Below are positions 25,759 to 55,506 of a DNA stretch of 64,000 nt, piece after piece. The stretch comes from Bacteroidota bacterium (GTDB lineage: Bacteria; Bacteroidota; JABWAT01). Each line of letters starts with the position of its first letter. Position 1 is the stretch's first letter. The notes below the pieces were generated by a model that searched no databases, was not told the origin of the DNA, and saw only the letters and a program-made list of their open reading frames with translations. The position numbers were made by a program, and so were the translations under genes. The DNA lies in contig JAIUNL010000016.1 in NCBI GenBank assembly GCA_020161835.1, positions 1 through 64,000 on the forward strand. The letters are read 5' to 3'.

Positions 25759-26514
25759 ATGAAAAAACTAACAATCCTCTCAATTCTGATTCTTTCTGGT
25801 TCCATCTCCTTTTCCCAGACCAAATGGATGGTTACAAACAAAAAATCAGGGGCAGCTGATTCTATCAAGGTTTCTGATATACAGAATATTGTTTTTCGAA
25901 CTGGCGAAAGCGCGGTATCAAATACGGTCACTGACATTGATGGTAACATTTACCACACTGTTAAAATTGGTACCCAAGAATGGACCGTCGAAAATTTAAG
26001 AACAACCCGGTATAATGATGGAACATATATTTCAAATGTAACAAGCAATTCAACTTGGACAACAACCACAACTGAGGCCTTTTGCTATTATGAAAACAAT
26101 GTATCAACGGCACCAATGTATGGGTGTCTTTATAATTGGTACTCAGTAAACACTGGCAAGCTGGCTCCGGTAACGGGTGGGTGGAGGGTTCCAACAGATG
26201 CCGATTGGTCAACACTGGCCACTTTTTTGGGTGGGGCATCTATTGCAGGAGCACCACTTAAATCAAAAATGGGTTGGTCGGCTGGCGGGAATGGTACAGA
26301 TGATTTTGGATTTTTTGCCTTACCAGCAGGTGCAAGAATTCATACTAACGGTTCTTTCGCCTATTTAAGTCAATATGCAAATTGGTGGAGCTCAACTTCA
26401 ATGGATACAGAAACTGCCTGGGACCGATTTACCAGCTTTGAGGACTCAGTATTAACCAGAGGAAATGGTAGTAAAAAACTTGGACTTTCTATTCGTCTTG
26501 TCAGGGACCTTTAA
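25759..26514 (+). CDS. Secreted FISUMP-domain protein
   Basis: The 251-residue protein starts MKKLTILSI; a slightly earlier in-frame ATG at 25747 is less likely. Signal peptide to about residue 19 (SFSQ). A short segment KWMVTNKKSGAADSIKVSDI resembles the T9SS-linked protein just upstream. The FISUMP domain occupies about residues 55-251 (VKIGTQEWTVENLRTTRYND to LSIRLVRDL). Its C-terminal part (FGFFALPAGARIHTNG) differs strongly from its neighbours. It starts 29 bases after the upstream gene and is followed 12 bases later by a similar gene, so the three are probably one operon. Confidence 0.82.
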   Translation: MKKLTILSILILSGSISFSQTKWMVTNKKSGAADSIKVSDIQNIVFRTGESAVSNTVTDIDGNIYHTVKIGTQEWTVENLRTTRYNDGTYISNVTSNSTWTTTTTEAFCYYENNVSTAPMYGCLYNWYSVNTGKLAPVTGGWRVPTDADWSTLATFLGGASIAGAPLKSKMGWSAGGNGTDDFGFFALPAGARIHTNGSFAYLSQYANWWSSTSMDTETAWDRFTSFEDSVLTRGNGSKKLGLSIRLVRDL

Positions 26515-26526
26515 AAATAATCTATT

Positions 26527-27270
26527 ATGAAAAACCTACTCACACTTTCAATATTTCTTCTCCTTTTTTCAACTTCCTTTTCCCAGACTAACTGGATGGT
26601 TATTGATAAAAAAAATGGAGGAAAGGATACCGTGTCTGTTGGGCAGATCAACAACATCACCTTTTTCCAATTGGCTAATTCAGTAAATGACATTGATGGT
26701 AATTTGTACCATACTGTGATTATTGGTAATCAGGAATGGACAGTTGAGAACCTCAGAGCAACCCATTTCAATGATGGAACACCAATTCCGAAGGTAACTG
26801 ATGGTGCTGTATGGACACAGCAGACTACCGGGGCAATGTGTGCCTACCAAAACAACGAAGGTAACGTTGAGACCTATGGCTATCTGTATAATGGTTTTTG
26901 TACAAGTTCCGGAAAATTGGCTCCGGTGAATGGTGGCTGGAGAGTTCCGACTTCAGCAGACTGGGCTACCCTTGTCGATTATATCGGGGGATCTGCAGAT
27001 GCAGGTTTAAAACTTAAAGCAACTTTCAGTTGGGCAAATGGTGGAAATGGCAATGATGTCTACGGCTTCAAAGCGTTTGGAGGCGGATATCGGTATTCTA
27101 TGACCGGCGCGTTCAGTAATCAGGGACTATATGGTTACTGGTGGAGTTCAACAAAGTATGCAATGAACGGATCTTATAACTTGATTTTATTTAAGCACCA
27201 AAATGAGTCTCAGATTAATGGAAATGACAAAAGAGATGGTTACTCTGTCCGGTTTGTCAGGGATCTTTAG
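26527..27270 (+). CDS. Secreted FISUMP-domain protein, paralogue of the preceding gene
   Basis: The 247-residue protein has the same plan as the upstream gene: signal peptide (to about residue 19), a short NWMVIDKKNGGKDTVSVG segment, and a FISUMP domain from VIIGNQEWTVENLRATHFND to YSVRFVRDL. The end of the domain reads GFKAFGGGYRYSMTGA, so the usual SALPGG block is partly lost. The two genes are clearly a tandem duplication. Confidence 0.82.
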   Translation: MKNLLTLSIFLLLFSTSFSQTNWMVIDKKNGGKDTVSVGQINNITFFQLANSVNDIDGNLYHTVIIGNQEWTVENLRATHFNDGTPIPKVTDGAVWTQQTTGAMCAYQNNEGNVETYGYLYNGFCTSSGKLAPVNGGWRVPTSADWATLVDYIGGSADAGLKLKATFSWANGGNGNDVYGFKAFGGGYRYSMTGAFSNQGLYGYWWSSTKYAMNGSYNLILFKHQNESQINGNDKRDGYSVRFVRDL

Positions 27271-27586
27271 CCTATTTGACCAAACCGTAACTCGTTGAGA
27301 GGATGTAGGAGGAGGGGCATAATTAAGGGCACGGAGCCGGCGAAATGAAGAGTTCCGAAATACTTTTACCTTTGAATAAAAGTACAGAAAAACCCTCCAC
27401 AAAACCTGCTTATATCCAGCTATGGCTGAAAAGTAACTGAGATAACAAATCCGTTTATGAAAAAAAGCCCGGGACAACAATACCGGCTCATTTCAAAAGA
27501 TGAAGCGTTTTGAATTGCCCAGTATAACCTGAAACCGATTTTGAGTGTGGGGTAGGATGGGGAATCGTTTGATTATTTTCCGTCAA
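27271..27586. other. Intergenic gap between FISUMP operons
   Basis: About 315 bases without a gene. An AT-only inverted repeat TACTTTTA (27361) with TAAAAGTA (27377) could be a weak terminator. The shared leader of the next gene starts at 27587. Confidence 0.4.
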
Positions 27587-27629
27587 TTGGATATTTTTTA
27601 TTCTCTTTGAATTTTGCTCAGGTCACAAA
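27587..27629 (+). promoter_or_regulatory. Leader shared with the paralogue at 318
   Basis: These 43 bases match 275-317 at 40 positions. They lie directly before the ATG and carry the same TTTGAATTTTGCTCAGG. None of the other PEGA paralogues has this leader, because they are internal operon genes or start after other sequence. Confidence 0.55.
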
Positions 27630-29696
27630 ATGAAATTCTACCTTATCGCCTTATCCCTTCTGATTTCCGGCCTGAGTTCAGCCCAGACACTTAAAGAATT
27701 CGACCTTCAGGAGATGAGTGAGCAGCAAATTCCCGTCTTTGTTGAACATCCCAACGAAGCAGCACTCATTTTTTACACAGCAATCAACGGGTTCACGGTT
27801 CAGTCTAACACGGGTGGGATTGTTAAAATCGAAAGTGAAGCTACCAAAGTAACGGTATTTCTAAAACCCGAACGCCAGATTCTAACGCTTAAAGCTCCCG
27901 GATTTATTGAGAAAAAACTGCCGGTTGAAACTCTTTCTGCAAAGCAAACAAAGTTTTACAGGGTAAATGGGAAAGAAGAAAGCTACAGTTCCGATAAAGG
28001 AAGTTATCAGATCAACACGGTTCCTGATGGCGTCATGCTAAAAATTGATGGCATTCCTTCCTTCCGTGAATTAACGCCCTTTGATCTGAAGGAGTTTGAA
28101 GCAAAAAAATATAGACTTAATCTGACAAAGCCCGATTACTACCCGTTAGATACACTCATTGAAATCAGACAGGGAATAAAGCAAAGTGGTGTTTTTAAAC
28201 TCCGGTCGATGTATGGTACGCTTTCAATCAAAACGCCGGTTGCTGTTAAGGCTAATCTAAATGACCAGACTTTGGATGTTGGTCCCGAACTGAATAACCA
28301 ACGATTAAGGGATGGTGTATATACGCTTACGGTAAATGATCCCCGGTTTTTCCCATATACAGAAAACATAACCATTTTATCTGGTCAAACAGCCATCAAA
28401 GAAATCCCTTTAAAATCTGTTTTTGGAACCCTGATTTTAAAATCCGCTATACCGGTTAAAGTGAAAATCAATGACCGATCAGAGGACATTGGATCGGAAC
28501 CCAAAACATTTTCCCTCAAAATCGGAGATTATACTCTATCAGTAAACGACCCGAGAGTTGATTCCTGGACTGAAAAAGTAGCTATTGGTTCAGGGGAAAC
28601 CAAAACCCTTGACTTACCCCTGGTAAAACGGGTGGGTTACCTTCAAATTCTTCATGCGGATGGGTTTACCCTGACTGTTGGCAGGGAAACCAAATCCAAG
28701 AAACCAGGTACCCAGCTCATTGAATTTTTTGAAGGCAGTTATTTGGCAGAAGTAAAACGACCTGGATTTCAGCCGGTTTTTTTTCCTTTTACCATAAAAA
28801 AAGGCGAAGTGATTAATTGGGAACCGGCATTTCAGGATGTTTCTGTACTCGTAAAACTTCAATCGGATCCTGAAGGTGCAACCGTTCAATATACCCGGAA
28901 TGGTGAGACCAAGCTTCTGGGGTTTACTCCGCTTGAAGAACAAATGGCTGTTGGTGAAGTTGAATTTCTTTTTAAACGTGATGGATATAAAGATTACCAA
29001 TTCAAAGCAACATTTGAGGAAGGAAAACCATTTTCAAGGAAAATAAATCTGGCGAATCCCGATGAATTTAATGTTAAAAATCTGAACAAAAAACCCATCG
29101 ACAAACCTGGTACATTAACTTACAATGGCTTCACCTACACAACTGTTTTAATTGGCAAACAGGAGTGGACGGTTGAAAACCTAAGAACAACTAAATACAA
29201 TGACGGAACACAGATTAAAAATTTAACAAAAAGCCCAGAGTGGACAAAAACAACCTCTGGTGCCTATTGTGCTTATGACGATAAAGAAAACAATGTGGAG
29301 AATTACGGATACTTATATAATTGGTATGCGGTAAATACTAGAAAATTAGCTCCTGATGGTTGGCGAGTACCATCGAATGATGACTGGGATTTACTGATGA
29401 CATCAGTTGGTGGAAGTTTAGTTGCTGGAAATAAATTAAAAGCAAAATCCGGGTGGTTTAATAATAGAAATTGTGCGGATGACTACGGATTCTGTGCCCT
29501 ACCAGGAGGCTACTGTAGCGACTTCAATGGAGCATTTCTCGGCCTAGGTAACTATGGAAACTGGTGGAGTTCGACTGTTTCCAATGAGAGTAACGCTTGG
29601 AGTCGCTACATAAACTACGATTACTCCAATGTGAGCAGGAACGTCGACGATAAAAAAAGTGGTTTTTCTGTTCGCCTTGTAAGAGATGTTCAATAA
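27630..29696 (+). CDS. Secreted PEGA-FISUMP protein with an extra repeat module
   Basis: The 688-residue protein has a signal peptide (to about residue 19), the conserved EMSEQQIPVFVEHPNEAA domain, PEGA-like repeats and a C-terminal FISUMP domain (from about residue 490). It is 68 residues longer than the copy at 318 because the middle module is duplicated. One copy starts YGTLSIKTPVAVKANLNDQ and the next FGTLILKSAIPVKVKINDR. The last 65 residues (from GFCALPGGYCSDFNGAF, DNA 29487-29693) are the hypervariable-looking part, with NWWSS and FSVRLVRD fixed. The stop overlaps the next start by one base (TAATG). Confidence 0.85.
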   Translation: MKFYLIALSLLISGLSSAQTLKEFDLQEMSEQQIPVFVEHPNEAALIFYTAINGFTVQSNTGGIVKIESEATKVTVFLKPERQILTLKAPGFIEKKLPVETLSAKQTKFYRVNGKEESYSSDKGSYQINTVPDGVMLKIDGIPSFRELTPFDLKEFEAKKYRLNLTKPDYYPLDTLIEIRQGIKQSGVFKLRSMYGTLSIKTPVAVKANLNDQTLDVGPELNNQRLRDGVYTLTVNDPRFFPYTENITILSGQTAIKEIPLKSVFGTLILKSAIPVKVKINDRSEDIGSEPKTFSLKIGDYTLSVNDPRVDSWTEKVAIGSGETKTLDLPLVKRVGYLQILHADGFTLTVGRETKSKKPGTQLIEFFEGSYLAEVKRPGFQPVFFPFTIKKGEVINWEPAFQDVSVLVKLQSDPEGATVQYTRNGETKLLGFTPLEEQMAVGEVEFLFKRDGYKDYQFKATFEEGKPFSRKINLANPDEFNVKNLNKKPIDKPGTLTYNGFTYTTVLIGKQEWTVENLRTTKYNDGTQIKNLTKSPEWTKTTSGAYCAYDDKENNVENYGYLYNWYAVNTRKLAPDGWRVPSNDDWDLLMTSVGGSLVAGNKLKAKSGWFNNRNCADDYGFCALPGGYCSDFNGAFLGLGNYGNWWSSTVSNESNAWSRYINYDYSNVSRNVDDKKSGFSVRLVRDVQ

Positions 29697-31534
29697 TGAA
29701 AAAACTACTTTTCCTATCACTCCTTTTTCTCCCAACTCTCCTCTTTTCCCAGACACTTAAAGAATTCGACCTGCAGGAAATGAGCGAGCAACAGATTCCG
29801 GTTTTTGTTGAACATCCCAACGAAGCAGCACTCATTTTTTACACCGCCATAAATGGGTTCACTGTTGAATCCAACACTGGAGGCGTCGTAAGTACCCAAA
29901 GTGAAGGTTCAAAGTTTACCGCATTTCTTAAACCCGAACGCCAGATTTTAACTCTTAAAGCTCCCGGCTTTATTGAGAAGAAAATGGCGTTAGAGAATAT
30001 GTCTGCCAAACAGGCAAAATTTTACCGGGTGAATGAACAGGAAAATACCTACACCACTGAAACCGGTTTCTTCAAAGTTCAAACCCAGCCTGAAGGAGCA
30101 TTGATGAAAATTGAAGGATTCCCAACCTTCAAACAATGGACTCCGTGTGAACTAAAGGACTTTAAAGCGGGAAAATACCGGATTAACCTGACCAAACCTG
30201 ATTATTACCCGCTTGATACTTTGATTGAAATCAGGCCGGGGATGAAGCAAAACGGACTTTTTATATTAAAAAGTATGTACGGCACCTTGTCAATCATGGC
30301 CAGTTTACCAGTAAAAGTAAAAGTTGGTAACCAAACCATTGATGCCAGTACGGATCTCACTAATCTTCGGCTCAGGGATGGGTCTTATGATCTCTCAGTG
30401 AACGATCCCCGTTTTGATCCGTACCGGGAAACGGTTTTTGTCGAATCGGGCAAAACCAAAATTCTGGATCTGCCTTTGGTAAAGCGAGCTGGGTTCTTGC
30501 AGATCATGCATGCAGAGGGATTTGACGTAGCAGTTAACGGGGAAACCCGTATCAAAAAACCGGGAACCCAGCTTCTTGAGTTTTTTGAAGGTAGTTACCG
30601 TGCAGAAATAAAACGACCCGGGTTTCAGCCAGTGACCTTTTCATTTACGATTAAAAAGGGCGATGTAATAAACTGGGAACCTGTATTTACAGCAGTTACA
30701 GTTAAAGTAAAACTGGAAACTGATCCGGCCGGAGCAATGGTTTCGTTGATTCGAAATGGGGAAGAAGAACCTTTGGGATTTACTCCACTTGAAGAACAAA
30801 TTGCTGTTGGGGATGTAGAATTTCTTGTTAAACGGGACGGATATAAGGATTACCAGTTCAAGGCCACACTTGAGGAAGGAAAACCTTTCCAAAGAACAAT
30901 TAACCTTGTAAACCCAACACTCGGTAATTACAAAGCTATAAGCGGAATCAAATACGGATCTCTGGAATACAATGGGTTCACATATAAAACTGTAGTCATT
31001 GGCAATCAGGAATGGACTATTGAGAATTTGCGGACAACCCGATACAACGACGGGACTTCAATTCCCAAAATAACCGGTACCAATGACTGGGCAAACGATA
31101 GAAAAGGCGCCTATTGTGCGTATGACAACGATGAAAGTAAGGTTGCCTCTTATGGATATTTGTACAACTGGCATGCAGTGAATACAGGAAAACTGGCTCC
31201 AAAAGCCGGTGGCTGGCGGGTACCAACGGATGCAGACTGGACGAAATTAACTGATTATGTTGGAAGCAATGCCGGAAGGGAATTGAGAGCAAAGACAGGT
31301 TGGTCGAGAAACACAGGAACAGATAACTTCGGCTTCAGCGCCCTTCCGGGTGGTTACCGTAACTACTATGGATACTTCAACAGCTTTGGCGGCAGCGGCA
31401 ACTGGTGGAGTTCCTCTGCCTACGATACAGATGACGTCTGGACCCGCGGCATGAACTACAATAGCACCGACGTGCTCAGAAATTACGACAATAATAGATT
31501 CGGGTTTTCTGTTCTTCTGGTCAGGGATATGTGA
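29696..31534 (+). CDS. Secreted PEGA-FISUMP protein
   Basis: The 612-residue protein starts MKKLLFLSLLFLPTLLFSQ (signal peptide). It has the shared N-terminal domain, PEGA-like modules with QPEGALMKIEG and DPAGAMVSLIRNG, and a FISUMP domain from VVIGNQEWTIENLRTTRYND. In the final segment (DNA 31331-31531) 15 of the 16 codons between the PGG and WW blocks end in C or T. The end reads FSVLLVRDM, where most paralogues have FSVRLVRD. It is translationally coupled to the gene before it. Confidence 0.85.
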   Translation: MKKLLFLSLLFLPTLLFSQTLKEFDLQEMSEQQIPVFVEHPNEAALIFYTAINGFTVESNTGGVVSTQSEGSKFTAFLKPERQILTLKAPGFIEKKMALENMSAKQAKFYRVNEQENTYTTETGFFKVQTQPEGALMKIEGFPTFKQWTPCELKDFKAGKYRINLTKPDYYPLDTLIEIRPGMKQNGLFILKSMYGTLSIMASLPVKVKVGNQTIDASTDLTNLRLRDGSYDLSVNDPRFDPYRETVFVESGKTKILDLPLVKRAGFLQIMHAEGFDVAVNGETRIKKPGTQLLEFFEGSYRAEIKRPGFQPVTFSFTIKKGDVINWEPVFTAVTVKVKLETDPAGAMVSLIRNGEEEPLGFTPLEEQIAVGDVEFLVKRDGYKDYQFKATLEEGKPFQRTINLVNPTLGNYKAISGIKYGSLEYNGFTYKTVVIGNQEWTIENLRTTRYNDGTSIPKITGTNDWANDRKGAYCAYDNDESKVASYGYLYNWHAVNTGKLAPKAGGWRVPTDADWTKLTDYVGSNAGRELRAKTGWSRNTGTDNFGFSALPGGYRNYYGYFNSFGGSGNWWSSSAYDTDDVWTRGMNYNSTDVLRNYDNNRFGFSVLLVRDM

Positions 31535-31633
31535 CTAACCCGTTGCGGTGGCTTCGAGTGTGCTTCGACAGTTCGGCAAGCTCAATTACCACCAGCTCAG
31601 CAACCACCTCAGCGGTTACTTAATCTCTTCTTT

Positions 31634-32961: not shown

Positions 32962-33219
32962 TGAGCTACCTTTCTGGTTATTGAACTTATTACTTTGGTC
33001 ATGTCAATATAATGAAAATTATTTTACTGAAGAAACCAAGGTTTATTAATTTCCGGTTATAAATTCGGAATCTTTCTAAAAGGCACAGTTTAAACCATAC
33101 TACGGCCTGACTTTGTTTTTCTGGATTAGGGAAAAGAAGCTCAACCGGTTGATTTTAAACAGTATTTAAGGTAAAATTGGTTTTTGGTATTAAGTTGGTT
33201 TTAAGGAGTAATTGAAAAA

Positions 33220-35702: not shown

Positions 35703-35789
35703 GGGTGGGGGTACATTTTTTACCACAAAGAACACGAAACTGGAAAATGAACCTAAAGAAATTTGGTTTTGATTTAAGATTTCGATAGT

Positions 35790-35831: not shown

Positions 35832-35906
35832 GGGGATGTTCCGGAATGCAGGACGAAATAGCAAAATTCTTTTGGGTTAAAACCCAAGCCTTTTAAATTC
35901 TATCTT

Positions 35907-36112: not shown

Positions 36113-37966
36113 ATGAAAACCCTGCTCTTTCTATCACTCCTCTTCCTCCCAACTCTTCTCCTCTCCCAAACCCTAAGGGAATTTGACCTGCTGGAAATGA
36201 GTGAACAGCAAATTCCGGTTTTTATTGACCATCCAAATGAAGGGGCGATTGTTTTTTATACTGCGATTTCTGGTTTCACTATTGAATCCAGCACCGCGGG
36301 AGTAGTTAGCACACAAAGCGACGGTTCCAAATACAGTGCGTTTCTCAAACCCGAACGCCAGATTTTAACCTTGAAGGCCCCCGGTTTTATGGAGAAGAAA
36401 CTTTCAATAGACAACCTTTCTGCCAAACAGGCAAAGTTTTACCGGGTGAATCCGAAAGAGGAAAAATATAGTTCTGAAAAAGGCAGTTACCAGATTAACA
36501 GTGACCCATCCGGAGTCCTGTTGACTATTGAAGGATATCCTGGGTTTAAAGAATTTACCCCTTTTGAGTTGAAGGATTATGAAGCAAGAAAATACAAAAT
36601 TACACTTGCCAAACCTGGGTTTTACACGCTGGACACCTTGATAGAAATAAGAACCGGAATACGCCAGAGCAGTTTTTACAAAATCAGATCTCAGTTTGGG
36701 TTATTGTCCCTGAAAGCACCTCTGAATGTCAGTGTTAAAATCAATAACCAGAGTGTAGAGGTTGGTCCGGATTATGTGAACCAGAAGTTGAAAGATGGTG
36801 TCTATACCCTTGTTGTCAATGATTCCCGGTTTGACCCGTATCATGAAACGGTTACCGTTGGTTCAGGCGAAACAAGATTACTGGAATTGCCTTTGGTAAA
36901 ACGGGTTGGAGTTCTTCAGATAGATCATTCCGATGCTTTTGAGGTTTCAGTAAATGGAACAGTATACACTAAAAAAGCGGGTATTCAGTTGCTTGAATTC
37001 TTCGAGGGAAGTTATCAGGCGAAAATTAAACGGACAGGATTTGCATCAGTTGAGTTTTCTTTCGTCATTCAAAAAGGAAAGATAGTATCCTGGACTCCTG
37101 TGTTTAAACCCATCCTGGTACAGGTAAAGCTGACAAGCGAACCTGAAGGTGCGTCTGTTGTTTTAATCAGAAATGGTGAAAAAAAGGTTCTGGGTTTCAC
37201 CCCAATAGAAGAACAGATTTCAGCCGGTGAAGTTGAATTTTTATTTTCAAGTGACGGATTTACTGATTATAAGTTTAAAGAAACAGTGGTGGAAGGAAAA
37301 CCACTAACCCGAAAAATAAATTTATCTGATCTTTCAGCAAAAAACCAACCAGGAATCAGCCCAAAAGGTGTTGAAACCGTAATCGATAGTGATGGGAATG
37401 TATATCATACCGTTAAAATTGGCACACAGGAATGGACAGTTGAAAATTTACGGACCACGAAATACAATGATGGAACTCCAATTGCTAAAATTACTGATCA
37501 ATCAACCTGGGCGAACCGAACAACTGAAGCATATTGTGCCTATGACAACAATGAAAATAACGTAACCAAATACGGTTATTTGTATAACTGGTACGTTGTG
37601 AATACCGGTAAACTGGCACCAGAAACCGGTGGCTGGCGTGTACCCACAGATGACGACTGGGATAAATTGATGACAGCTGTTGGCGGAAGTTCAGCTGAGG
37701 GAACAAAGCTTAAATCTAAAACAGGGTGGAATAGGGGCGGAAATGGCACAGATGACTATGGTTTCAGCGCCCTCCCGGGTGGTGGCCGGGGCTACAATGG
37801 AGGCTTCAGTAATGTTGGCTATTACGGCAACTGGTGGAGTTCGAAACCTGACGATACTTATTACTCTTGGAACCGCGGCATTAACTTCGATGACTCCGAG
37901 GTGTCTAGAGGCACTGGCAATAATAGGGATGGCTTTTCAGTCCGTCTTGTAAGGGATATTCAATAA
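36113..37966 (+). CDS. Secreted PEGA-FISUMP protein, first gene of the large operon
   Basis: The 617-residue protein has a signal peptide (to LLSQ), the conserved domain EMSEQQIPVFIDHPNEGA, PEGA-like modules (SDPSGVLLTIEG; EPEGASVVLIRNG) and a FISUMP domain from VKIGTQEWTVENLRTTKYND. Hypervariable-looking end: DNA 37760-37963, fixed blocks SALPGG, NWWSS and FSVRLVRD. It starts a run of nine genes with one-base (TAATG) or four-base (ATGA) overlaps or short gaps. A promoter for the run should lie in the 400-base gap before it. Confidence 0.85.
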   Translation: MKTLLFLSLLFLPTLLLSQTLREFDLLEMSEQQIPVFIDHPNEGAIVFYTAISGFTIESSTAGVVSTQSDGSKYSAFLKPERQILTLKAPGFMEKKLSIDNLSAKQAKFYRVNPKEEKYSSEKGSYQINSDPSGVLLTIEGYPGFKEFTPFELKDYEARKYKITLAKPGFYTLDTLIEIRTGIRQSSFYKIRSQFGLLSLKAPLNVSVKINNQSVEVGPDYVNQKLKDGVYTLVVNDSRFDPYHETVTVGSGETRLLELPLVKRVGVLQIDHSDAFEVSVNGTVYTKKAGIQLLEFFEGSYQAKIKRTGFASVEFSFVIQKGKIVSWTPVFKPILVQVKLTSEPEGASVVLIRNGEKKVLGFTPIEEQISAGEVEFLFSSDGFTDYKFKETVVEGKPLTRKINLSDLSAKNQPGISPKGVETVIDSDGNVYHTVKIGTQEWTVENLRTTKYNDGTPIAKITDQSTWANRTTEAYCAYDNNENNVTKYGYLYNWYVVNTGKLAPETGGWRVPTDDDWDKLMTAVGGSSAEGTKLKSKTGWNRGGNGTDDYGFSALPGGGRGYNGGFSNVGYYGNWWSSKPDDTYYSWNRGINFDDSEVSRGTGNNRDGFSVRLVRDIQ

Positions 37967-39723: not shown

Positions 39724-39725
39724 TC

Positions 39726-42700
39726 GTGGAAACCAACTCAAAAGGAAAACCGGTAAATTTAATTTATCTTTTTTTGGGATTGATTTTCCTATCCTGCTCC
39801 CCCGAAAATGACAAAATTGAAACCTTATTTGGTGAGGAAGGTAATTCACAAAAAGAGGAAATTAAAAACGGTACTCTTACCTATAATGGGTACACCTATA
39901 AAACGGTTGTAATTGGCGATCAGGAATGGCTGGCTGAGAATCTTCGGACGACATCTTATAATGATGGTACTTCAATTGCCAATATTACAGATAATACGGC
40001 TTGGGCCGGCACCAATAATGGTGCAATGTGTGCCTTTAATAATGACCAGAATAATGTTTCAATTTATGGTTATTTATATAACTGGCATGCAGTTAATACT
40101 GGGAAATTAGCACCTGCAGGCTGGAGGGTTCCGACTGATAATGATTGGGTTTTGTTATTTGATCATCTTGGTGGTTTAAATGAATCGGGTGGCAAATTAA
40201 AGGAAGTTGGCACTACCCATTGGGGGAGTCCAAATGTTGGAGCAACAAATGAAGTCAACTTTTCATCGCTTCCAGGTGGACTTCGGGGCTGGGATTCTGG
40301 ATGGTTTTTATATACAGGAAACTTAGCCTCTTTTTGGTCATCAACTTCAGCAAATACACCGGATGGCGATGCGTGGAGTTATTTTCTTAATTATGACCAG
40401 AAAACGGTGTTAAGAAGTGCAAATCGATTTCGATATGGTTACAGTGTTCGCCTTGTCATGAATAGGGGAGCGCAAGTTAATAATCCTCCGACTGAACCAT
40501 CACTTCCTTTACCTGTAAATGAGTCTATCAGCCAATCGATCTCACTTTCGCTAGGCTGGTCATGCAGTGACCCCGATGGAGATTCTCTAACCTATGATGT
40601 TTACCTCGGAACAAACTCAAGTCCGACTACTATTGTTTCTGCAAATCAAACCGCAAAAAACTTTTCCCCTGCCGGGTTAACAACCAACACCACCTATTAT
40701 TGGAAAATCGTAGCTAAGGACAGCAGAGGTGGAACGACAACCGGACCAGTATGGAATTTTAAAACCGAATTAGCTAATAACCCACCGTCAATACCATCAA
40801 ATCCGTCGCCTCCTTCAGATCTGACAACACTTCAGCCCACAACGGTTTCTTTGAGCTGGTCATGCAGTGATCCTGATGGAGATGCCCTGACTTACGATGT
40901 TTATTTTGGAACAAACTCAAGTCCGACTACTATTGTTTCAGCAAATCAAACCGCAAAAAACTTTACTCCAACTGGCTTGACAAATAACACCATTTATTAT
41001 TGGAAAATCGTTGCCAAAGACAGCAGAGGTGAAAGTACAACCGGAGTAGTTTGGAATTTTAAAACTGAATTATCGCCAAATAATCCTCCGGTGACACCCT
41101 CCAATCCATCACCGGCATCTAATCTCACAACTCTTCAGCCCATAACTGTTTCTTTGAGCTGGTCATGTAGCGATCCCGATGGAGATGCCGTAACCTATAA
41201 TGTTTATTTTGGAACAAACTCAAGTCCGACTACTATTGTTTCAGCAAATCAAACCGCAAAAAACTTTTTACCAGCCGGGTTAACAACCAACACAATTTAC
41301 TATTGGAAAATTGTTGCAAAAGACAGCAGGGGTGGAAGTACAACCGGACCCGTTTGGCAGTTTAAAACTGAATTACCGCCAAATAATCCTCCGGTAGCAC
41401 CGTCAAATCCGTCTCCGGCTTCAAATCTGATATCACTTCAGCCCACAACAGTTTCTTTAAGCTGGTCATGCAGTGATCCTGATGGAGATGCCCTGACTTA
41501 CGATGTTTATTTTGGAACAAACTCAAGTCCTACTACTATTGTTTCAGCAAATCAAACCGCAAAAAACTTTTTACCAGCCGGTTTGACAACCAACACAATA
41601 TACTATTGGAAAATTGTTGCCAATGACAGTAAAGGTGCAACGACAACCGGGCCCGTCTGGAATTTTAAAACTGAATTACCGCCAAATAATCCTCCGGTCT
41701 CACCGTCAAATCCGTCGCCGGCTTCAAACCTCACAACGCTTCAGCCCATAACTGTTTCTTTGAGCTGGTCATGTAGCGATCCCGATGGAGATGCCGTAAC
41801 CTATGATGTTTATTTTGGGACAAGCTCAAGTCCGACTACTATTGTTTCTGCAAATCAAACCGCAAAAACCTTTACGCCTTCCGGTTTGACAAATAACACA
41901 ATTTACTATTGGAAAATCGTTGCTAAAGACAGCAGAGGTGGAAGTACAACCGGACCCGTTTGGCAGTTTAAAACTGAATTACCGCCAAATAATCCTCCGG
42001 TGACACCATCTAATCCGTCGCCTCCTTCATACCTCATGTTGCTTCAGCCCACAACGGTTTCTTTGAGCTGGTCATGCAGTGATCCCGATGGAGATGCCCT
42101 GACTTATGATGTTTACTTCGGAACAAGCTCAACACCAACGACAATCGTTTCCGCAAACCAGACAACCAAAACCTTTACGCCTACCGGTTTGACAAATAAC
42201 ACCGTTTATTATTGGAAAATTGTTGCCAAAGACAGTAAAGGCGGAGCAACCACAGGACCCGTCTGGAATTTTAAAACTGAATTACCACCAAATCACCCAC
42301 CGGTGGCACCATCAAATCCATCACCTGCTTCAAATCTCACAACCATGCAGCCAACAACTGTTTCTTTGAGCTGGTCATGCAGTGATCAGGATGGAGATGC
42401 CCTGACTTACGATGTTTATATTGGGACAAGCTCAAGTCCAAATGTTATTGTTTCAACCAATCAAAGTTCAAAGAATTATTCTACTTCAGAATTGTCACTC
42501 AACACTACATACTATTGGAAGGTAGTTGCAAAAGATGGCAAAGGTGGAACGACAACCGGTGCAGTTTGGCAGTTTAAAACAGTTCTCAATTATGATTTCA
42601 CTTTTGATGGTCACCTTTACAAAACAGTTGTGATTGGCACTCAGGTCTGGACTGTGGAAAATCTGCAAACCACGAAATACAACGATGGAACTTCAATAGA

Positions 42701-43181
42701 CAAAATCACCGATAATACGGACTGGGTAAATTTAACAAGTGGCGCCTTTTGTGCTTATAATAATACCGAAAGCAGGGTTTCCACATACGGGTATTTATAT
42801 AATTTTTATGCGGTAAACACAGGAAAACTGGCTCCTACAACCGGAGGGTGGCGGGTCCCGACCGATGCAGACTGGGATAAACTGACTAATTATGTTGGTG
42901 GAAGTTTAACGGCCGGAACCAAATTAAAGGCAAAAACGGGTTGGAATGGTAGTGGAAACGGTACGGATAATTATGGTTTCAGCGCCCTTCCTGGTGGTTA
43001 CCGTGGCGTCGGTCTTGGTATATTTTACTCCAGTGGTAATGACGGCAGATGGTGGAGTTCTGCGTCTTCCGGTTCCAACGACGCATGGTACCGATCCATG
43101 TATTACACTCTTTTTGACGTGTTCAGGAGCTACGATAGTTACAAAAGCGGCTTCTCCGTTCGTCTGGTCAGGGACAAATAA
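39726..43181 (+). CDS. Lipoprotein with two FISUMP domains and seven FN3-like repeats
   Basis: The protein (about 1,151 residues) starts at GTG 39726, three bases after the upstream stop; a TTG at 39711 is the alternative. The lipobox is FLGLIFLSC. A first FISUMP domain (VVIGDQEWLAENLRTTSYND to YSVRLVMNR) is followed by seven FN3-like repeats of about 100 residues, each beginning NNPP or NHPP and containing SCSDPDGDALTYDVYFGT and YYWKIVAKDS. A second FISUMP domain ends the protein (hypervariable-looking DNA 42975-43178). The repeats probably form a rigid stalk holding the terminal domain away from the membrane. Confidence 0.85.
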   Translation: METNSKGKPVNLIYLFLGLIFLSCSPENDKIETLFGEEGNSQKEEIKNGTLTYNGYTYKTVVIGDQEWLAENLRTTSYNDGTSIANITDNTAWAGTNNGAMCAFNNDQNNVSIYGYLYNWHAVNTGKLAPAGWRVPTDNDWVLLFDHLGGLNESGGKLKEVGTTHWGSPNVGATNEVNFSSLPGGLRGWDSGWFLYTGNLASFWSSTSANTPDGDAWSYFLNYDQKTVLRSANRFRYGYSVRLVMNRGAQVNNPPTEPSLPLPVNESISQSISLSLGWSCSDPDGDSLTYDVYLGTNSSPTTIVSANQTAKNFSPAGLTTNTTYYWKIVAKDSRGGTTTGPVWNFKTELANNPPSIPSNPSPPSDLTTLQPTTVSLSWSCSDPDGDALTYDVYFGTNSSPTTIVSANQTAKNFTPTGLTNNTIYYWKIVAKDSRGESTTGVVWNFKTELSPNNPPVTPSNPSPASNLTTLQPITVSLSWSCSDPDGDAVTYNVYFGTNSSPTTIVSANQTAKNFLPAGLTTNTIYYWKIVAKDSRGGSTTGPVWQFKTELPPNNPPVAPSNPSPASNLISLQPTTVSLSWSCSDPDGDALTYDVYFGTNSSPTTIVSANQTAKNFLPAGLTTNTIYYWKIVANDSKGATTTGPVWNFKTELPPNNPPVSPSNPSPASNLTTLQPITVSLSWSCSDPDGDAVTYDVYFGTSSSPTTIVSANQTAKTFTPSGLTNNTIYYWKIVAKDSRGGSTTGPVWQFKTELPPNNPPVTPSNPSPPSYLMLLQPTTVSLSWSCSDPDGDALTYDVYFGTSSTPTTIVSANQTTKTFTPTGLTNNTVYYWKIVAKDSKGGATTGPVWNFKTELPPNHPPVAPSNPSPASNLTTMQPTTVSLSWSCSDQDGDALTYDVYIGTSSSPNVIVSTNQSSKNYSTSELSLNTTYYWKVVAKDGKGGTTTGAVWQFKTVLNYDFTFDGHLYKTVVIGTQVWTVENLQTTKYNDGTSIDKITDNTDWVNLTSGAFCAYNNTESRVSTYGYLYNFYAVNTGKLAPTTGGWRVPTDADWDKLTNYVGGSLTAGTKLKAKTGWNGSGNGTDNYGFSALPGGYRGVGLGIFYSSGNDGRWWSSASSGSNDAWYRSMYYTLFDVFRSYDSYKSGFSVRLVRDK
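40479..42588 (+). repeat. Seven tandem FN3-like coding repeats
   Basis: Seven copies of a roughly 300-base unit. Long stretches are near-identical between units, for example GATGGAGATGCCCTGACTTA and AACTCAAGTCCGACTACTAT. Copy number differs among the paralogous genes (1, 3, 7, 9), as expected if slippage or recombination changes the stalk length. Confidence 0.85.
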
Positions 43182-43253
43182 TTTATGTGGTTCCCATTTT
43201 CTCAAGCCAAAGTTTTGATAGTCCCTTTATACTCGCAAACAAAAGAGAAATGT

Positions 43254-44882
43254 ATGCTTGAATTTAAACTGAACTTGAGTTTGTGCAGCACAAAAAACCT
43301 CCTCAAATATTCACTTTTTGTTGGTTTATACTTTACGATTTTATCTTGTTCTCCCGAAAATGATAAAATTGAAACCTTATTTGGTGAGGAAAGCAATTCC
43401 AGTAAAAACGGTACTCTAACCTATAATGGGTACACCTATAAAACGGTAGTAATAGGTGATCAGGAATGGCTTGCTGAAAATCTTAGGACGACAACTTATA
43501 ATGATGGTACTTCAATTGTAAATATTACAGATAATACGGCTTGGGCCGGCAGCAATAATGGTGCAATTTGTGCCTTTAATAATGACCAGAATAATTCTTC
43601 AATTTATGGTTATTTATATAACTGGAATGCAGTTAATACTGGGAAATTAGCACCTGCAGGCTGGAGGGTTCCGAATGATAATGATTGGACCAGATTAACC
43701 GATTATGTTGGTGGTGAATCCACTGCTGGTAAAACGCTAAAAGCCAAAACAGGTTGGATTGCTGGGGCTCTGGGTGATGATAACTATGGTTTCAGCGCCC
43801 TTCCGGGAGGATACCGTTCCGCCACTGGAAGTTTCGACAATGTTGGATACTACGGCTACTGGTGGAGTTCATCGCCCACCGTTGCAAATGGCGCATGGAT
43901 CCGTCAGATGGGTCTCGATCGAAGTGTGTACAGATATGACAAATCTTCCAGGAACGGGTTCTCTGTCCGGTTTGTTCGGACTATAGGAACGCAAGTTAAC
44001 AACCCTCCCATGGCACCCTCAAATCCGTCACCTGCTTCAAATCTCACAACCCTGATGCCAACAACTGTTTCTTTGAGCTGGTCATGCAGCGATCCTGATG
44101 GAGATGCTGTAACCTATGATGTTTACTTTGGAACCAACTCAAGTCCAACTACTATTGTTTCTGCAAACCAGACAACCAAAACCTTTAAGCCATCCATTTT
44201 GACTACCAACACCATATACTATTGGAAAATTGTTGCCAAAGACAGCAGAGGTGGAAGTACAACCGGGGCAGTCTGGCAGTTTAAAACTATTTCTGGTTAT
44301 GATTTCACATTTGATGGTCATTTATACAAAACGGTTGTGATTGGCACTCAGGTCTGGACTGTTGAAAATCTGCAAACTACGAAATACAATGACGGGTCTG
44401 CAATAACCAAAATACCTGATAGCGCGAACTGGGCTACCGCGTCGAGCGGTGCCTTTTGTGCACATGGCAACAATGAAATTAATGTGGTCACATATGGTTA
44501 TTTGTATAATTGGTTTGCAGTAAACACAGGGAAACTTGCACCTCCAGGATGGAGGGTACCGACAGATGCAGACTGGACAAAACTAACCGATTATTTGGGT
44601 GGGGTTACCACCGCTGGAACCAAACTAAAGGCAAGGAGTGGGTGGAATAGTAGTGGAAATGGCACAGATGATTACGGCTTCAGCGCCCTTCCAGGTGGCT
44701 TCCGTATCTATGGCGGTGATTTCTACAGTCTTGGTTATTATGGCGCTTGGTGGAGTTCTTCAGATTTTGATTCTGAGCGGTCCATATACCGTGAGTTGGG
44801 ATTTGATGGCGCCCACGTGAACAAAGATAGTTACTATTTTGGAGGCGCCTTCTCCATCCGTCTGGTCAGGGATGTTCAATAA
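43254..44882 (+). CDS. Lipoprotein with two FISUMP domains and one FN3-like repeat
   Basis: I chose ATG 43254 (542 residues) because it gives a good lipoprotein signal ending LYFTILSC; the frame is open from 43185. Its first FISUMP domain is nearly identical at its start to that of the preceding gene (VVIGDQEWLAENLRTTTYND) but has a different end (GYRSATGSFDNVGYYG, DNA 43798-43980). One FN3-like repeat follows, then a second FISUMP domain with its own variable end (DNA 44676-44878). It looks like a shortened duplicate of the preceding gene. It overlaps the next start by one base. Confidence 0.82.
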   Translation: MLEFKLNLSLCSTKNLLKYSLFVGLYFTILSCSPENDKIETLFGEESNSSKNGTLTYNGYTYKTVVIGDQEWLAENLRTTTYNDGTSIVNITDNTAWAGSNNGAICAFNNDQNNSSIYGYLYNWNAVNTGKLAPAGWRVPNDNDWTRLTDYVGGESTAGKTLKAKTGWIAGALGDDNYGFSALPGGYRSATGSFDNVGYYGYWWSSSPTVANGAWIRQMGLDRSVYRYDKSSRNGFSVRFVRTIGTQVNNPPMAPSNPSPASNLTTLMPTTVSLSWSCSDPDGDAVTYDVYFGTNSSPTTIVSANQTTKTFKPSILTTNTIYYWKIVAKDSRGGSTTGAVWQFKTISGYDFTFDGHLYKTVVIGTQVWTVENLQTTKYNDGSAITKIPDSANWATASSGAFCAHGNNEINVVTYGYLYNWFAVNTGKLAPPGWRVPTDADWTKLTDYLGGVTTAGTKLKARSGWNSSGNGTDDYGFSALPGGFRIYGGDFYSLGYYGAWWSSSDFDSERSIYRELGFDGAHVNKDSYYFGGAFSIRLVRDVQ

Positions 44883-46633: not shown

Positions 46634-48219
46634 AAAGGAATTTTTCGCCACTGCTCATCTTACTGGTGTCAGGCCTGTTAGGTTGTTCTGAGAAAAGCAG
46701 TCTATTGGAAGGTCTTTTGACAAATAATGCCCCTGATGCTCCTGAAGTTTATTCTCCTGCAAATGGTTCAACGGGGAAATCAACAACCATTGTTTTAAGC
46801 TGGACAGGTAATGATCCGGATGGGGATGTTCTGACCTATAATGTTTACTTTGGAACAAGTCCCGCAACAATTCAAATTGTCTCATCTGGTAAAAAAGAGG
46901 ATTATTTAGAAATTAGAAACCTTGCCCATAACACCACTTATTACTGGAAAATTATAGCAAAAGACAATAAGGGGGCTTCAACGGAAAGTCTGGTTTGGTC
47001 GTTTAAAACAGGTGACCTGCCCAATTTGGCACCTTCAGCACCTTCCAATCCGAATCCGGCCTCAAATCTGACCATCCTTCAGCCAACAGTTCTGGCCATA
47101 AGTTGGTCATGCGATGACCCGAATGGGGATCCATTAACCTATGATGTTTACTTCGGAACAAGCCCATCTCCGGATTTATTTTTTATTGTTTCGGTCAATC
47201 AGACTGAAAAAAGTTACACTCCTTCGGGTTTAACAACCAACACCACTTACTACTGGAAAATAGTTGCAAAAGACGATAAAGGGGCTAGCACAATAGGGCA
47301 GCTTTGGCAGTTTATTACGGTACCTCCACCAAATAACCCGCCATTAGCACCATTCAATCCATCTCCCGCCTCAAATCTTAGCACACTGCAAACCACAACG
47401 GTTTCATTAACCTGGTCTTGCAATGATCCCGATGGAGATGCATTAACCTATGATGTTTACTTTGGGACCAATTCATCACCAAATATAATGGTTTCCTCAA
47501 ATCAAACTGAAAAAAGTTACTCCCCTTCAGCGTTGACCAGAAATACCAACTATTATTGGAAAATTGTTGCCAAGGACGGCAAAGGTGGAATGACAATAGG
47601 TTCAGTCTGGAATTTTAAGACCAACCAAAGTTATGATTTCACTTTTGATGGTCACCTTTATAAAACCGTTGTGATTGGTAATCTGGTCTGGACGGTTGAA
47701 AATCTGCAGACCACCAAATATATTGACGAGACATTGATAGCCAAAATTACTGATAACTCAACCTGGAGCACTTCGACAGGTGGTGCATATTGTGTTTATG
47801 ATAACAATGAAACTAATGTAGCCACTTATGGTTATCTGTACAACTGGCATGCAGTTAATACTGGTAAACTTGCACCTGCAGGCTGGCGAGTACCAACAGA
47901 TGCAGACTGGACCAAACTTGAAACAGAAGTTGGAGGGTCTGCAAATGCTGGTACCAAACTAAAAGCAACTTCCGGTTGGAAAAACAACGGAAATGGAACT
48001 GATTTCTATGGGTTCAGCGCCCTTCCGGGTGGTGCACGCGAATTCGATGGAGTCTTCGGAATTCTGGGCGATTACGGAGTCTGGTGGAGTTCTACTCCTT
48101 TCGGTACGAATAGCGCCTGGTACCGGATGATTGGTTCCGGTTTCGTCAATGTGGTAAGGTTCGACTACAATAAGAGAAATGGGTTTTCTGTTCGCCTGGT
48201 CAGGGATGTTCAAGAATGA
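46630..48219 (+). CDS. Lipoprotein with three FN3-like repeats and a FISUMP domain
   Basis: The 529-residue protein has a lipobox LLGCSEKSS (Cys19). Three FN3-like repeats (starts NNAPDAPEVY, NLAPSAPSNP, NNPPLAPFNP) are followed by a C-terminal FISUMP domain (VVIGNLVWTVENLQTTKY). The hypervariable-looking end is DNA 48010-48215. Compared with the other FN3 lipoproteins it lacks the first FISUMP domain. Confidence 0.83.
   Translation: MKRNFSPLLILLVSGLLGCSEKSSLLEGLLTNNAPDAPEVYSPANGSTGKSTTIVLSWTGNDPDGDVLTYNVYFGTSPATIQIVSSGKKEDYLEIRNLAHNTTYYWKIIAKDNKGASTESLVWSFKTGDLPNLAPSAPSNPNPASNLTILQPTVLAISWSCDDPNGDPLTYDVYFGTSPSPDLFFIVSVNQTEKSYTPSGLTTNTTYYWKIVAKDDKGASTIGQLWQFITVPPPNNPPLAPFNPSPASNLSTLQTTTVSLTWSCNDPDGDALTYDVYFGTNSSPNIMVSSNQTEKSYSPSALTRNTNYYWKIVAKDGKGGMTIGSVWNFKTNQSYDFTFDGHLYKTVVIGNLVWTVENLQTTKYIDETLIAKITDNSTWSTSTGGAYCVYDNNETNVATYGYLYNWHAVNTGKLAPAGWRVPTDADWTKLETEVGGSANAGTKLKATSGWKNNGNGTDFYGFSALPGGAREFDGVFGILGDYGVWWSSTPFGTNSAWYRMIGSGFVNVVRFDYNKRNGFSVRLVRDVQE
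46723..47625 (+). repeat. Three tandem FN3-like coding repeats
   Basis: Three copies of the roughly 300-base unit found in the neighbouring lipoprotein genes. They are more diverged from one another than the units at 40479, which suggests an older array. Confidence 0.75.
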
Positions 48220-50048
48220 AAAAACTACTCCTTCTCCCAATCCTTTTCCTTCCATCCCTCCTCTTTTCCCAAGTCCTAAAGGAATTTGACCTTCAGGAAA
48301 TGAGTGAGCAGCAGATTCCCGTCTTTGTTGAACATCCAAATGAATCCGCATTGATTTTCTACACAGCCATAAATGGATTTACGGTTCAGTCTAACACGGG
48401 TGGGATTGTTAAAATCGAAAGTGAAGCGACCAAAGTAACCGTTTTTCTAAAACCTGAACGGCAAATCCTGACATTAAAAGCACCCGGGTTTATCGAGAAA
48501 AAGCACCTGATTGAATCCATTTCAGCCAAACAGACCAAATTTTTCCGTTTAAATGAACTTGAAAGTTCAAACACCATTGAAACGGGCTCTTACAAAATTC
48601 AGACCCAACCTGAAGGAGTATTATTGAAAATAGAAGGGATTTCTGACTTCAAAAAGTTTACTCCGTTCGAATTGTTGGATTACAGGGCCGGAAAATACCG
48701 GATTTTTCTAACCAAACCGGATTATTACCCCCTTGATACTTTAATTGAGATCCGGCCAGGAATGAAACAGAACGTACTATTTGAGCTTAGAAGCATGTAT
48801 GGTACACTTTCACTACGTACTGACCTGCCAGTAAAAGTAAAAGTTGGTGGCCAGATCCTGGATGCTGGACCTGAACAAAGTAGTTTGCGGCTCAGGGATG
48901 GGAATTATGAGTTATCCGTGACTGATTCACGTTTTGATCCGTATCGTGAAAAGGTTCTTGTAGAGTCGGGTAAAACCAAAATTCTGGATTTACAACTGAT
49001 TAAACGATCTGGGTTTTTACAGATCATGCATGAAGATGGATTTGACGTTTTAGTAAACGGGGAAACCCGGATTAAAAAACCGGGAACCCAGCTGCTCGAA
49101 TTTTTTGAAGGAAATTACGAGATTGCAGTTAAAAGGCCAGGATTTCGGCCGGCCAATTTTCCCTTTTCAATTAAAAAAGGGGACATTATTAACTGGGAAC
49201 CCATTTTTAAACCGGTTACTGTTTTGATGAAACTTAATACAGATCCTGCAGGTGCTTTGGTAACCATTTACAGAAAGGGAGAAGAAGAAACGATTGGTTT
49301 TTCACCGTTTGAGGAGGCAATTTCTGTTGGTGAAATCGAAATTCTTCTCAAGAAAGAAGGATTTAATGATTACAGGTTTATTGTAAATCTTGAGGAGGAG
49401 AAACCTTATTCTAAAACAATTAATTTGGCGAATCCCCTGAAAGATGAATTTAAGGTGATCAACGGAATCCGTCATGGCACTTTAGACTACAATGGGTACA
49501 CCTACAAAACGGTTATTATTGGCAAGCAGGAATGGCTGGCTGAAAATCTAAGAACGACTCGTTATAATGACGGAACCTCAATTTTGAATATTGAAACAAG
49601 CAGTAATTGGTCAACGACTTCGAATGGCGCTTATTGTTCTTACAACCAGGATCAGAGAAATGCAGAAAAGTATGGGTATTTGTACAATTGGCATGCAGTA
49701 AATTCAGGAAAATTAGCTCCAATGGGTTGGCGGGTTCCAAGTGATGAAGATTGGACTATTCTTGAAAATGCTGTCGGTGGAAGTGGAAGGAAGTTAAAGG
49801 CAAAATCAGGATGGAGCATATTAAGTAATGACGAATTCGGTTTTGGTGCTCTTCCCGGTGGCAACCGTGATAATGAATTTGGTTCCTTTGGAAATCTTGG
49901 GATAATTGGTGATTGGTGGAGTTCAACTTCCACCAATAATATCTTTGCCATTGACAGAAGTCTGAGCAGAAATAACGACAGTGTTGGAAGATTCAATAAT
50001 AAACTAAACAACGGCTTCTCCGTCCGTCTTCTTAGAGATGTTCAGTGA
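48216..50048 (+). CDS. Secreted PEGA-FISUMP protein
   Basis: The 610-residue protein has the signal peptide, the EMSEQQIPVFVEHPNESA domain, PEGA-like modules and a FISUMP domain from VIIGKQEWLAENLRTTRYND. The variable end (DNA 49839-50044) starts GFGALPGGNRDNEFG and is rich in Asn (RNNDSVGRFNNKLNNG). That composition is what an AAC/AAT-rich template would give. It overlaps the genes on both sides. Confidence 0.84.
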   Translation: MKKLLLLPILFLPSLLFSQVLKEFDLQEMSEQQIPVFVEHPNESALIFYTAINGFTVQSNTGGIVKIESEATKVTVFLKPERQILTLKAPGFIEKKHLIESISAKQTKFFRLNELESSNTIETGSYKIQTQPEGVLLKIEGISDFKKFTPFELLDYRAGKYRIFLTKPDYYPLDTLIEIRPGMKQNVLFELRSMYGTLSLRTDLPVKVKVGGQILDAGPEQSSLRLRDGNYELSVTDSRFDPYREKVLVESGKTKILDLQLIKRSGFLQIMHEDGFDVLVNGETRIKKPGTQLLEFFEGNYEIAVKRPGFRPANFPFSIKKGDIINWEPIFKPVTVLMKLNTDPAGALVTIYRKGEEETIGFSPFEEAISVGEIEILLKKEGFNDYRFIVNLEEEKPYSKTINLANPLKDEFKVINGIRHGTLDYNGYTYKTVIIGKQEWLAENLRTTRYNDGTSILNIETSSNWSTTSNGAYCSYNQDQRNAEKYGYLYNWHAVNSGKLAPMGWRVPSDEDWTILENAVGGSGRKLKAKSGWSILSNDEFGFGALPGGNRDNEFGSFGNLGIIGDWWSSTSTNNIFAIDRSLSRNNDSVGRFNNKLNNGFSVRLLRDVQ

Positions 50049-54800: not shown

Positions 54801-55506
54801 AAGTAATTTTGCAACTTCAGATTTGACACTAAACACTACCTACTTTTGGAAAATAGTTGCCAATGACGGCAGAAATGCCCCGACAGAAGGACCGGTTTGG
54901 CAGTTTAAAACAATTCTCAATTATGATTTCACTTTTGATGGTCACCTTTACAAAACAGTTGTAATTGGCTCTCAGGTCTGGACGGTGGAAAATTTGCGGA
55001 CAACCAAGTTCAATGATGGAACGGCAATACCCTATATTACAGGTAACTCCTGGGATTGGGTTCATTCGACAAATGGTGCATTTTGTGAGTATGATTTTGA
55101 TGGGGGGAATGGGAATTCCTATGGATATCTGTATAATTGGTATGCGGTTAATACCGGGAAACTAGCTCCCTTATCAGAAAGTTGGAGGGTGCCAAGCGAT
55201 GAAGATTGGACCAAATTAACTGAATATGTTGGTGGAAGTTCTATTGCTGGAAACAAGTTAAAGGCAAAAAGCGGTTGGGATTTAGATACAGGTACAGATG
55301 ACTATGGCTTTCGTGCCCTTCCGGGTGGCTACCGTGACTACAACTTCGGACTTTTTCATGAAATTGGTAACACAGGCGCATATTGGAGTTCTTCTGGAAG
55401 TAACAGTGCGTGGTGCCGCTACTTTTATTCTGGTTCACCCAATGTAAGCAGACAAATGTACCCAAGTAGTGGCGGCTTTTCCGTTCGTCTTGTCAGGGAT
55501 TTATGA
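51820..55506 (+). CDS. Lipoprotein with nine FN3-like repeats and a FISUMP domain
   Basis: The 1,228-residue protein has a lipobox LLLLTCKDE. Residues about 40-128 form a different beta domain with ISRGVCWGVT and YHVRAYAQTS, common in Bacteroidota surface proteins. Nine FN3-like repeats of about 100 residues follow (DNA 52213-54912), then a FISUMP domain (VVIGSQVWTVENLRTTKFND) whose end (DNA 55306-55503) reads GYRDYNFGLFHEIGN and AYWSSSGS, with a change from WWSS. It is the last gene of the operon; a hairpin follows at 55531. Confidence 0.85.
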   Translation: MKKSHIFYLLAFVLLLLTCKDENNLIESQVFSESPVVKETKTAKSITRISAVSGGTISTTKGKTLISRGVCWGVTAAPTFEQNHTSDGKERGDFTSSITGLNPKTLYHVRAYAQTSDELVYGPELTFETLPNNTPAPPTVPSPASGATGITASPNLGWTASDPDGDPLTYTVYFGTNSTPSTIIATNQSPNSISRSNLAGNTRYYWKINAKDTFGASSTSPIWSFTTGTVNNPPTTPSNPSPASNLTSLQPTNVQLNWTSTDPDGDLLTYDVYFGLNSNPSAIVSANQTTQNFSPSGLTANTIYYWKIVAKDSKGGTTTGLIWQFKTELPANNPPVTPSNPSPASNLTTLQPTNVQINWSCSDPDGDALTYDVYFGTNSSPTTIVSANQTTQNFSPSDLTVNTIYYWKIVAKDSKGGTTTGPIWQFQTGLPPNKPPVAPSNPSPASNFLILQKLTVTLTWSCSDPDGDALTYDVYFGTSSTPSVIVSANQTASNYTCSGLTNNTVYYWKIIAKDSRGAITDGSAWQFKTELFNNPPDAPSSPSPATGTTDVTTSTSLSWVCSDPDGNVLTYNVLLGTNSYPTTIVSENQTSQNYTPSGLNYNTTYFWKIVAKDSKNAIKESAIWSFTTIPEPNHPPGIPTGPLPINGSINRPLALDISWSCSDPDGDALTYDVYFGTSSEPSVIVSANQTAQNYTPLGLTTNTTYYWKIIAKDGKNAPTEGPVWQFMTLVALNNPPLVPSSPTPFSNLTTLQPTSVRLSWECSDPDGDALTYDVYFGTNSTAPILVSANQTAQDFTPIGLTTNTIYFWKIVAKDSRGGITTGSVWQFKTELPPNNPPLMPSNPSPASNLTTLQPTTVSLSWSCSDQDGDALTYDVYFGTSSSPTSIVSENQTAKSFEHSGLTYNTTYYWKIVAKDSRGGSTTGPIWQFKTELPPNNPPVAPSNPIPASDLTTLQPTTVSLSWSCSDPEGDALTYDVYFGTSPTPSVIVSTNQTSSNFATSDLTLNTTYFWKIVANDGRNAPTEGPVWQFKTILNYDFTFDGHLYKTVVIGSQVWTVENLRTTKFNDGTAIPYITGNSWDWVHSTNGAFCEYDFDGGNGNSYGYLYNWYAVNTGKLAPLSESWRVPSDEDWTKLTEYVGGSSIAGNKLKAKSGWDLDTGTDDYGFRALPGGYRDYNFGLFHEIGNTGAYWSSSGSNSAWCRYFYSGSPNVSRQMYPSSGGFSVRLVRDL
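52213..54912 (+). repeat. Nine tandem FN3-like coding repeats
   Basis: Nine roughly 300-base units of the same family as those at 40479 and 46723. Identity is uneven: several units share long exact blocks (GATCCGGATGGGGATGCC), while units 5 and 6 are more diverged. Confidence 0.83.

Follow-up and report, generated by a model that had tools for sequence, protein, structure and literature searches.

The question raised by this locus is whether the variable ends of its FISUMP domains (PF09603) were made by a diversity-generating retroelement (DGR), and whether such an element is still present. The window analysed here, a stretch of 64,000 nucleotides, corresponds to positions 1-64000 of contig C31 (124.6 kb) in an assembly of 4.4 Mb that consists of 36 contigs and is 94.4% complete (genome G000). 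This genome encodes 34 FISUMP domains, with 27 on C31 and 13 in the window, and the FISUMP array extends beyond the window on C31. From 27630 to 55506, PEGA-FISUMP proteins, FISUMP-free PEGA proteins and fn3-FISUMP proteins resembling lipoproteins alternate in a tandem array. The FISUMP-free PEGA proteins (at 37966, 44882 and 50045) differ at the C-terminal end, which may be a membrane barrel, and the N-terminus shared by the array proteins (TLREFDLQEMSEQQIPVF) is far better conserved than their ends.

The initial annotation had proposed nine FISUMP ends in the window as DGR targets. All nine are present where it placed them, and it is confirmed that fixed SALPGG, WWSS and FSVRLVRD blocks enclose free sequence. 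Its codon counts were also exact: between PGG and WW, 15 of 16 codons in the 29696 gene end in a pyrimidine (Y), with GGA as the sole exception, as do all 16 in the 43254 gene's second domain. An adenine-type DGR footprint is clear in seven of the nine ends, but is weak or decayed in the remaining two (49839-50044 and 55306-55503; Table 1). In the whole genome, about 14 of the 34 FISUMP domains carry this footprint after the SALPGG block, 13 of them on one contig. As is characteristic of DGR targets, the variable region (VR) lies close to the stop codon in most target genes; the exception is the 43254 gene, which also has an internal footprint-bearing FISUMP. The footprint is absent from the FISUMP domains at 1635, 25960, 26716 and 39906.

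Table 1. FISUMP ends and control domains in the window. NNY, fraction of Y-ending codons; changes are relative to the reconstructed template (A-site counts partly circular, see text).
Feature	Position	Strand	Domain and protein	Measurements
Orphan VR	29484..29693	+	FISUMP 29145-29684, protein 27630-29696	NNY 0.96; C-ending z=3.4; template match E=1.7e-21
Freshest orphan VR (copy 30992)	31331..31531	+	FISUMP 30992-31525 of 29696-31534 gene (two PEGA + FISUMP)	29/29 variable-column codons Y-ending; changed 26/67 A sites, 2/65 non-A first/second positions, 6/60 third bases; template match 81%, E=2.3e-48
Orphan VR	37757..37963	+	FISUMP 37412-37954, PEGA-type protein 36113-37966	NNY 0.96 vs 0.76 expected, z=3.4; changed 33/67 A sites, 2/65 non-A first/second positions
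Orphan VR	42972..43178	+	C-terminal FISUMP 42627-43172 of 39711-43181 fn3-repeat protein	NNY 0.93, z=2.5; C-ending z=3.0
Orphan VR	43785..43980	+	First FISUMP (43446-43979) of 43185-44882 ORF	NNY 0.88, z=3.0
Orphan VR, partly decayed	44673..44878	+	Second FISUMP (44334-44870) of 43185-44882 ORF	27/60 third bases off template
Orphan VR	48007..48215	+	FISUMP 47668-48204, fn3-type lipoprotein-like protein 46630-48219	Changed 39/67 A sites, 1/65 non-A first/second positions; template match E=4.8e-19
Weak or old FISUMP end	49839..50044	+		NNY 0.79 vs 0.76 expected; 35/61 third bases off template
Weak or old FISUMP end, residual C-ending bias	55303..55503	+		NNY z=0.1; C-ending z=2.8; 28/59 third bases off template
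Two footprint-free FISUMP domains (internal negative controls)	25960..27261	+	25960-26505, 26716-27261	NNY z=0.8, -0.3
Footprint-free FISUMP	39906..40457	+	N-terminal domain of 39711 gene	NNY z=-0.2; C-ending z=-1.5

We compared codon choice with usage in neighbouring non-FISUMP coding sequence, conditioning the expectation on the residues encoded. In the variable columns after PGG, the C31 copies use Y-ending codons at a frequency of 0.78, where the residues they encode predict 0.69 (z=+7.7); among two-fold codons, the fraction ending in C is 0.53, versus 0.33 expected (z=+7.8). The variable columns in the N-terminal two thirds of the C31 domains, which served as a control, have neither excess (z=-1.1 for Y-ending and -2.7 for C-ending codons). 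FISUMP copies of a congener (G001) likewise have a Y-ending excess (z=5.5), and the seven copies elsewhere in G000, when pooled, do not (z=0.3). In two copies, 30992 and 85616, the Y-ending fraction is 1.00, as against 0.41-0.81 in FISUMP ends of other, unrelated genomes of the phylum.

Furthermore, the third bases behave as though they record a common source. Among 20 footprint copies (14 from G000 and 6 from G001), the third base is largely fixed in each variable column despite the varied residues, being mostly C, with T in columns 147, 153, 170, 184 and 199. When third bases were permuted within residue classes, chi2 fell to 31 +/- 8 from the observed 175 (z=18.4). Of the two controls, the N-terminal variable columns gave z=5.4, which is attributable to common ancestry, and the non-footprint copies gave z=0.2. 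For G001, the majority third bases of G000 gave the correct prediction in 34 of 41 cells with a residue unseen in the training column, compared with 8 of 17 upstream. Column-fixed third bases are what mutation at the adenines of AAC and AAT codons in a shared template should leave behind, and ordinary divergence would not be expected to produce them. A point against this account is that the WWSS serine codon (AGT/AGC) retains its A in every footprint copy, so that purifying selection has to be assumed at this position.

These patterns allowed a template of 204 bases to be reconstructed, with A at hypervariable first and second positions and the majority base elsewhere. The better copies have changed about 40-60% of its A sites and 2-12% of non-A first/second positions, a count with some circularity, as these copies also served to assign the A sites; the bases that replace A are more commonly G and T than C. 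As a non-circular check, we used the template as a query against 395 genomes of the phylum. Beyond the genus, its best match was in G155 (73% over 157 bases, E=1.8e-20), where a second place also matched (E=2.6e-12), and there were weaker matches in several genomes of family f8. On reading the loci, the G155 and f8 matches proved to be real DGR templates (TRs): those in G155 both adjoin Avd, FISUMP targets and truncated reverse transcriptases (RTs), and those in f8 are just upstream of DGR RTs.

The TR at one G155 locus, L188, was compared with the window copies. Its Asn columns coincide with the hypervariable columns of those copies (mean entropy 2.69 vs 0.97, p=6.6e-8), and in 20 of 22 columns its choice between AAC and AAT agrees with the third base that predominates among them (p=0.01). 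Within L188 itself, 26 of the 33 base mismatches between TR and VR are at a template A. The codon, memory and cross-species tests and this column match to a real TR thus agree that substitution in the VRs is adenine-limited.

The two G155 loci (L188:6857-8770 and L187:203-3857) are FISUMP DGR cassettes with target, Avd, TR and truncated RT, and represent DGR decay at an intermediate stage. In L188, the FISUMP gene is followed by a bAvd gene (PF22296, 68 bits, above the cut-off), the TR and the start of a truncated RT. This RT was identified from its resemblance to the beginning of the RT of G184, a genome of f8; Pfam gives the truncated RT no score. In L187, an RT-like start comes after the TR and runs into a DDE transposase, and the Avd is pseudogene-like. 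In G184 itself, bAvd gene, TR and RT stand in succession, and the RT is full (RVT_1, 68 bits); the same RT layout is found in G070 and G303. The f8 DGRs (L190:4703-8622 in G184, and likewise L193 and L194) are apparently complete, with a pentapeptide-repeat-like target ending in a VR, bAvd, TR and RT, and their TR shares the reading frame of the RT. A FISUMP gene in another genome (L189:6804-7473 in G203), whose end continues in another frame as a frameshifted VR-like end, is possibly a decayed DGR target.

We also searched for the machinery in the genome that carries the array and in its congeners. The lack of an RT that the initial annotation reported for the window extends to the whole assembly, where the RVT_1 profile has no match at E<=10. 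A match on C33 to the G184 DGR RT protein is a chance one (E=0.08), with a stop inside and unrelated short ORFs. When G000 and G001 (98% complete) were searched for a noncoding template, using the reconstructed template and a real VR as queries, significant matches were found only in FISUMP coding ends. For bAvd, the best G000 protein scored 28.9 bits against a cut-off of 40, and was rejected as a 23S_rRNA_IVP four-helix protein (134.6 bits). The other Avd-like proteins of G000 are all below the bAvd cut-off, and the array-free genomes G002 and G003 have similar ones; accessory proteins other than bAvd are used by some DGRs. G002 and G003 each have one FISUMP and no template match. Pattern and protein scans of viral contigs found nothing near the template, and phage and plasmid collections yielded only distant, partial FISUMP matches and no close relative.

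Two RTs in these relatives were considered as DGR enzymes and rejected. In G001, the sole RT is fused to Cas1 (RT-Cas1) and neighbours type III-like CRISPR genes; the RT of G003 has the same layout, next to Cas6- and Cas10-type genes. The fusion genes (L072:11321-13690 on G001:C74, which is Pfam-confirmed, and L081:4764-7139 on G003:C15) have Cas6- and Cas10/Csm-like neighbours, and no such fusion is present in G000.

The assembly therefore contains neither an RT nor an A-rich template copy, a combination that the initial annotation had named as refuting its own proposal, and a resident DGR is unsupported. With RT, TR and bAvd all missing, we regard the locus as a set of DGR-made variable regions, not as a DGR. 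What stands of the proposal is past diversification by a DGR, for which the codons, the third-base memory, the cross-species prediction and the real TRs all speak, together with its proviso that the ends could be older or trans-acting targets.

It is thus probable that a former trans-acting FISUMP DGR rewrote many targets and that its cassette was then lost, with the orphan VRs now decaying. We infer the rewriting mechanism and the loss of the cassette in the following form. One or a few closely related templates, an error-prone RT and bAvd would once have acted in trans on many FISUMP genes of the genus. A noncoding template RNA of about 200 bases, rich in AAC and AAT, would have been copied into cDNA by the RT, with errors at adenines, and this product would have replaced the stretch from around FSALPGG to just before GFSVRLVRD in each target, thereby randomising some 30 codons of the presumed ligand-binding loop region. 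Most likely the cassette was subsequently lost, and the targets would have decayed by ordinary silent drift into copies of graded age. Such a loss is plausible, since both G155 cassettes have broken RTs beside their TRs and Treponema denticola isolates that lack RT and TR keep adenine-type DGR targets, which have been read as leftovers of lost DGRs (PMC4891356).

The silent differences among the copies bear on the timing of these events. The mismatch to the template at third bases is graded: it is 10% in copy 30992, 15-40% in most footprint copies and more than 70% in unrelated ones. As the initial annotation had observed, conserved codons differ silently between copies, which excludes a single recent rewriting from one template. 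Among better-preserved copies, selected on amino-acid-level sites, third-base divergence is 0.44 in the VR versus 0.52 upstream (p=0.001), or 0.48 versus 0.62 when only variable columns are counted (p=1e-4), and it increases again to 0.56 in the last ten codons, as expected from a rewritten block with both edges inside the gene. Over all copies, silent divergence in the VR and upstream does not differ; copies chosen on low third-base mismatch give a sharper contrast, but one that is circular and on which we do not rely. The divergence pattern indicates that rewriting was repeated and mostly old.

Outside the array, FISUMP orthologue pairs (on C26, C3 and C20, compared with G001) diverge by ordinary silent change, with no sign of ongoing mutagenesis. 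One such pair of orthologous genes (G000:C26:44837-45382 and G001:C83:15854-16399) is 96% identical, and all of its residue changes but one are in the C-terminal third (alignment columns 145-154, 194 and 198), with silent changes domain-wide, which hints at diversifying selection without the DGR codon pattern.

It could be supposed that a DGR still acts in trans, either from an element missing in the assembly, such as a plasmid, a prophage or an unbinned contig, or through a polymerase unseen by RVT_1. Mobile elements are often lost in binning, and an assembly that is only 94.4% complete, in 36 contigs, leaves room for one; moreover, copy 30992 is near the template and the footprint is common to G001. 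However, a DGR-type RT, a template and bAvd were found in neither congeneric assembly (98% and 94% complete), the searched phage, plasmid and viral collections hold no close FISUMP relative, and even the freshest copy has 6 of 60 third bases mismatched to the consensus template, with most copies at 20-40%. We therefore consider continued action in trans unlikely. If true, it would amount to a live multi-target surface display in which a single template serves over a dozen lectin-like adhesins.

We give very little credence to an origin without any DGR, in which strong diversifying selection and gene conversion among paralogous C-type-lectin-like domains would have made codon positions 1 and 2 outpace silent change. 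The natural variability of FISUMP loops and the ease of recombination in a tandem array speak for it, as does the variation, without codon bias, of the same region in the footprint-free copies. Nevertheless, this account predicts neither the adenine-limited sites within mixed codons (the ATT, ACT, ATG and TAC columns), nor the excess of Y-ending and C-ending codons given the residues, nor a reconstructed template that matches real TRs upstream of RTs. Least credible of all is that the targets were imported ready-diversified by horizontal transfer from DGR-carrying relatives into a lineage that never had the machinery: such machinery is absent throughout the sampled family and related FISUMP DGRs are present in other families of the phylum, but in situ rewriting is a better fit to 13 footprint copies in one array, whose PEGA or fn3 N-terminal parts are like those of their neighbours, and to a third-base memory common to two species.

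The number of orphan VRs, their graded decay and the recovery of a template from third bases make the locus an unusual case of a known kind. It shares with T. denticola (PMC4891356) orphan adenine-type VRs without RT or TR and multiple remote targets; there, however, the template is known from sister isolates, whereas here it was recovered from third bases, and here about 14 orphan VRs in FISUMP domains, 13 of them on one contig and most in one array, are in graded decay. The G155 cassettes, from another family of the same phylum, share with it a FISUMP target, and carry Avd and a TR whose Asn columns and third bases agree with the template reconstructed here; their TR and Avd still adjoin the target, and the RT is truncated in both. 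That FISUMP is a known DGR target domain, as the initial annotation held, is borne out by a survey of human microbiomes in which PF09603 (Fib_succ_major) is documented as a target in 9 proteins (PMC4159848); those targets were called through a set of RT, TR and VR, whereas no machinery is found in the present assembly.

The proteins encoded by the target genes are secreted or lipoprotein-like and have PEGA or fn3 stalks, which suggests surface display of variable domains with a presumed binding function. As to a C-type-lectin fold, an AlphaFold2 model was too poor for a fold search (mean pLDDT 44), and no sequence relative was found in the PDB.

DGR surveys generally begin from the RT, and genomes whose machinery has been lost or left unbinned are therefore missed. 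Here, codon third bases suffice to reveal the footprint, and a lost template could be rebuilt accurately enough to pick out related sequences in other families. With copies of graded age, it would be possible to measure how fast DGRs are gained and lost and how fast their targets decay, and to see for how long the binding diversity made by a DGR persists once its generator is gone.
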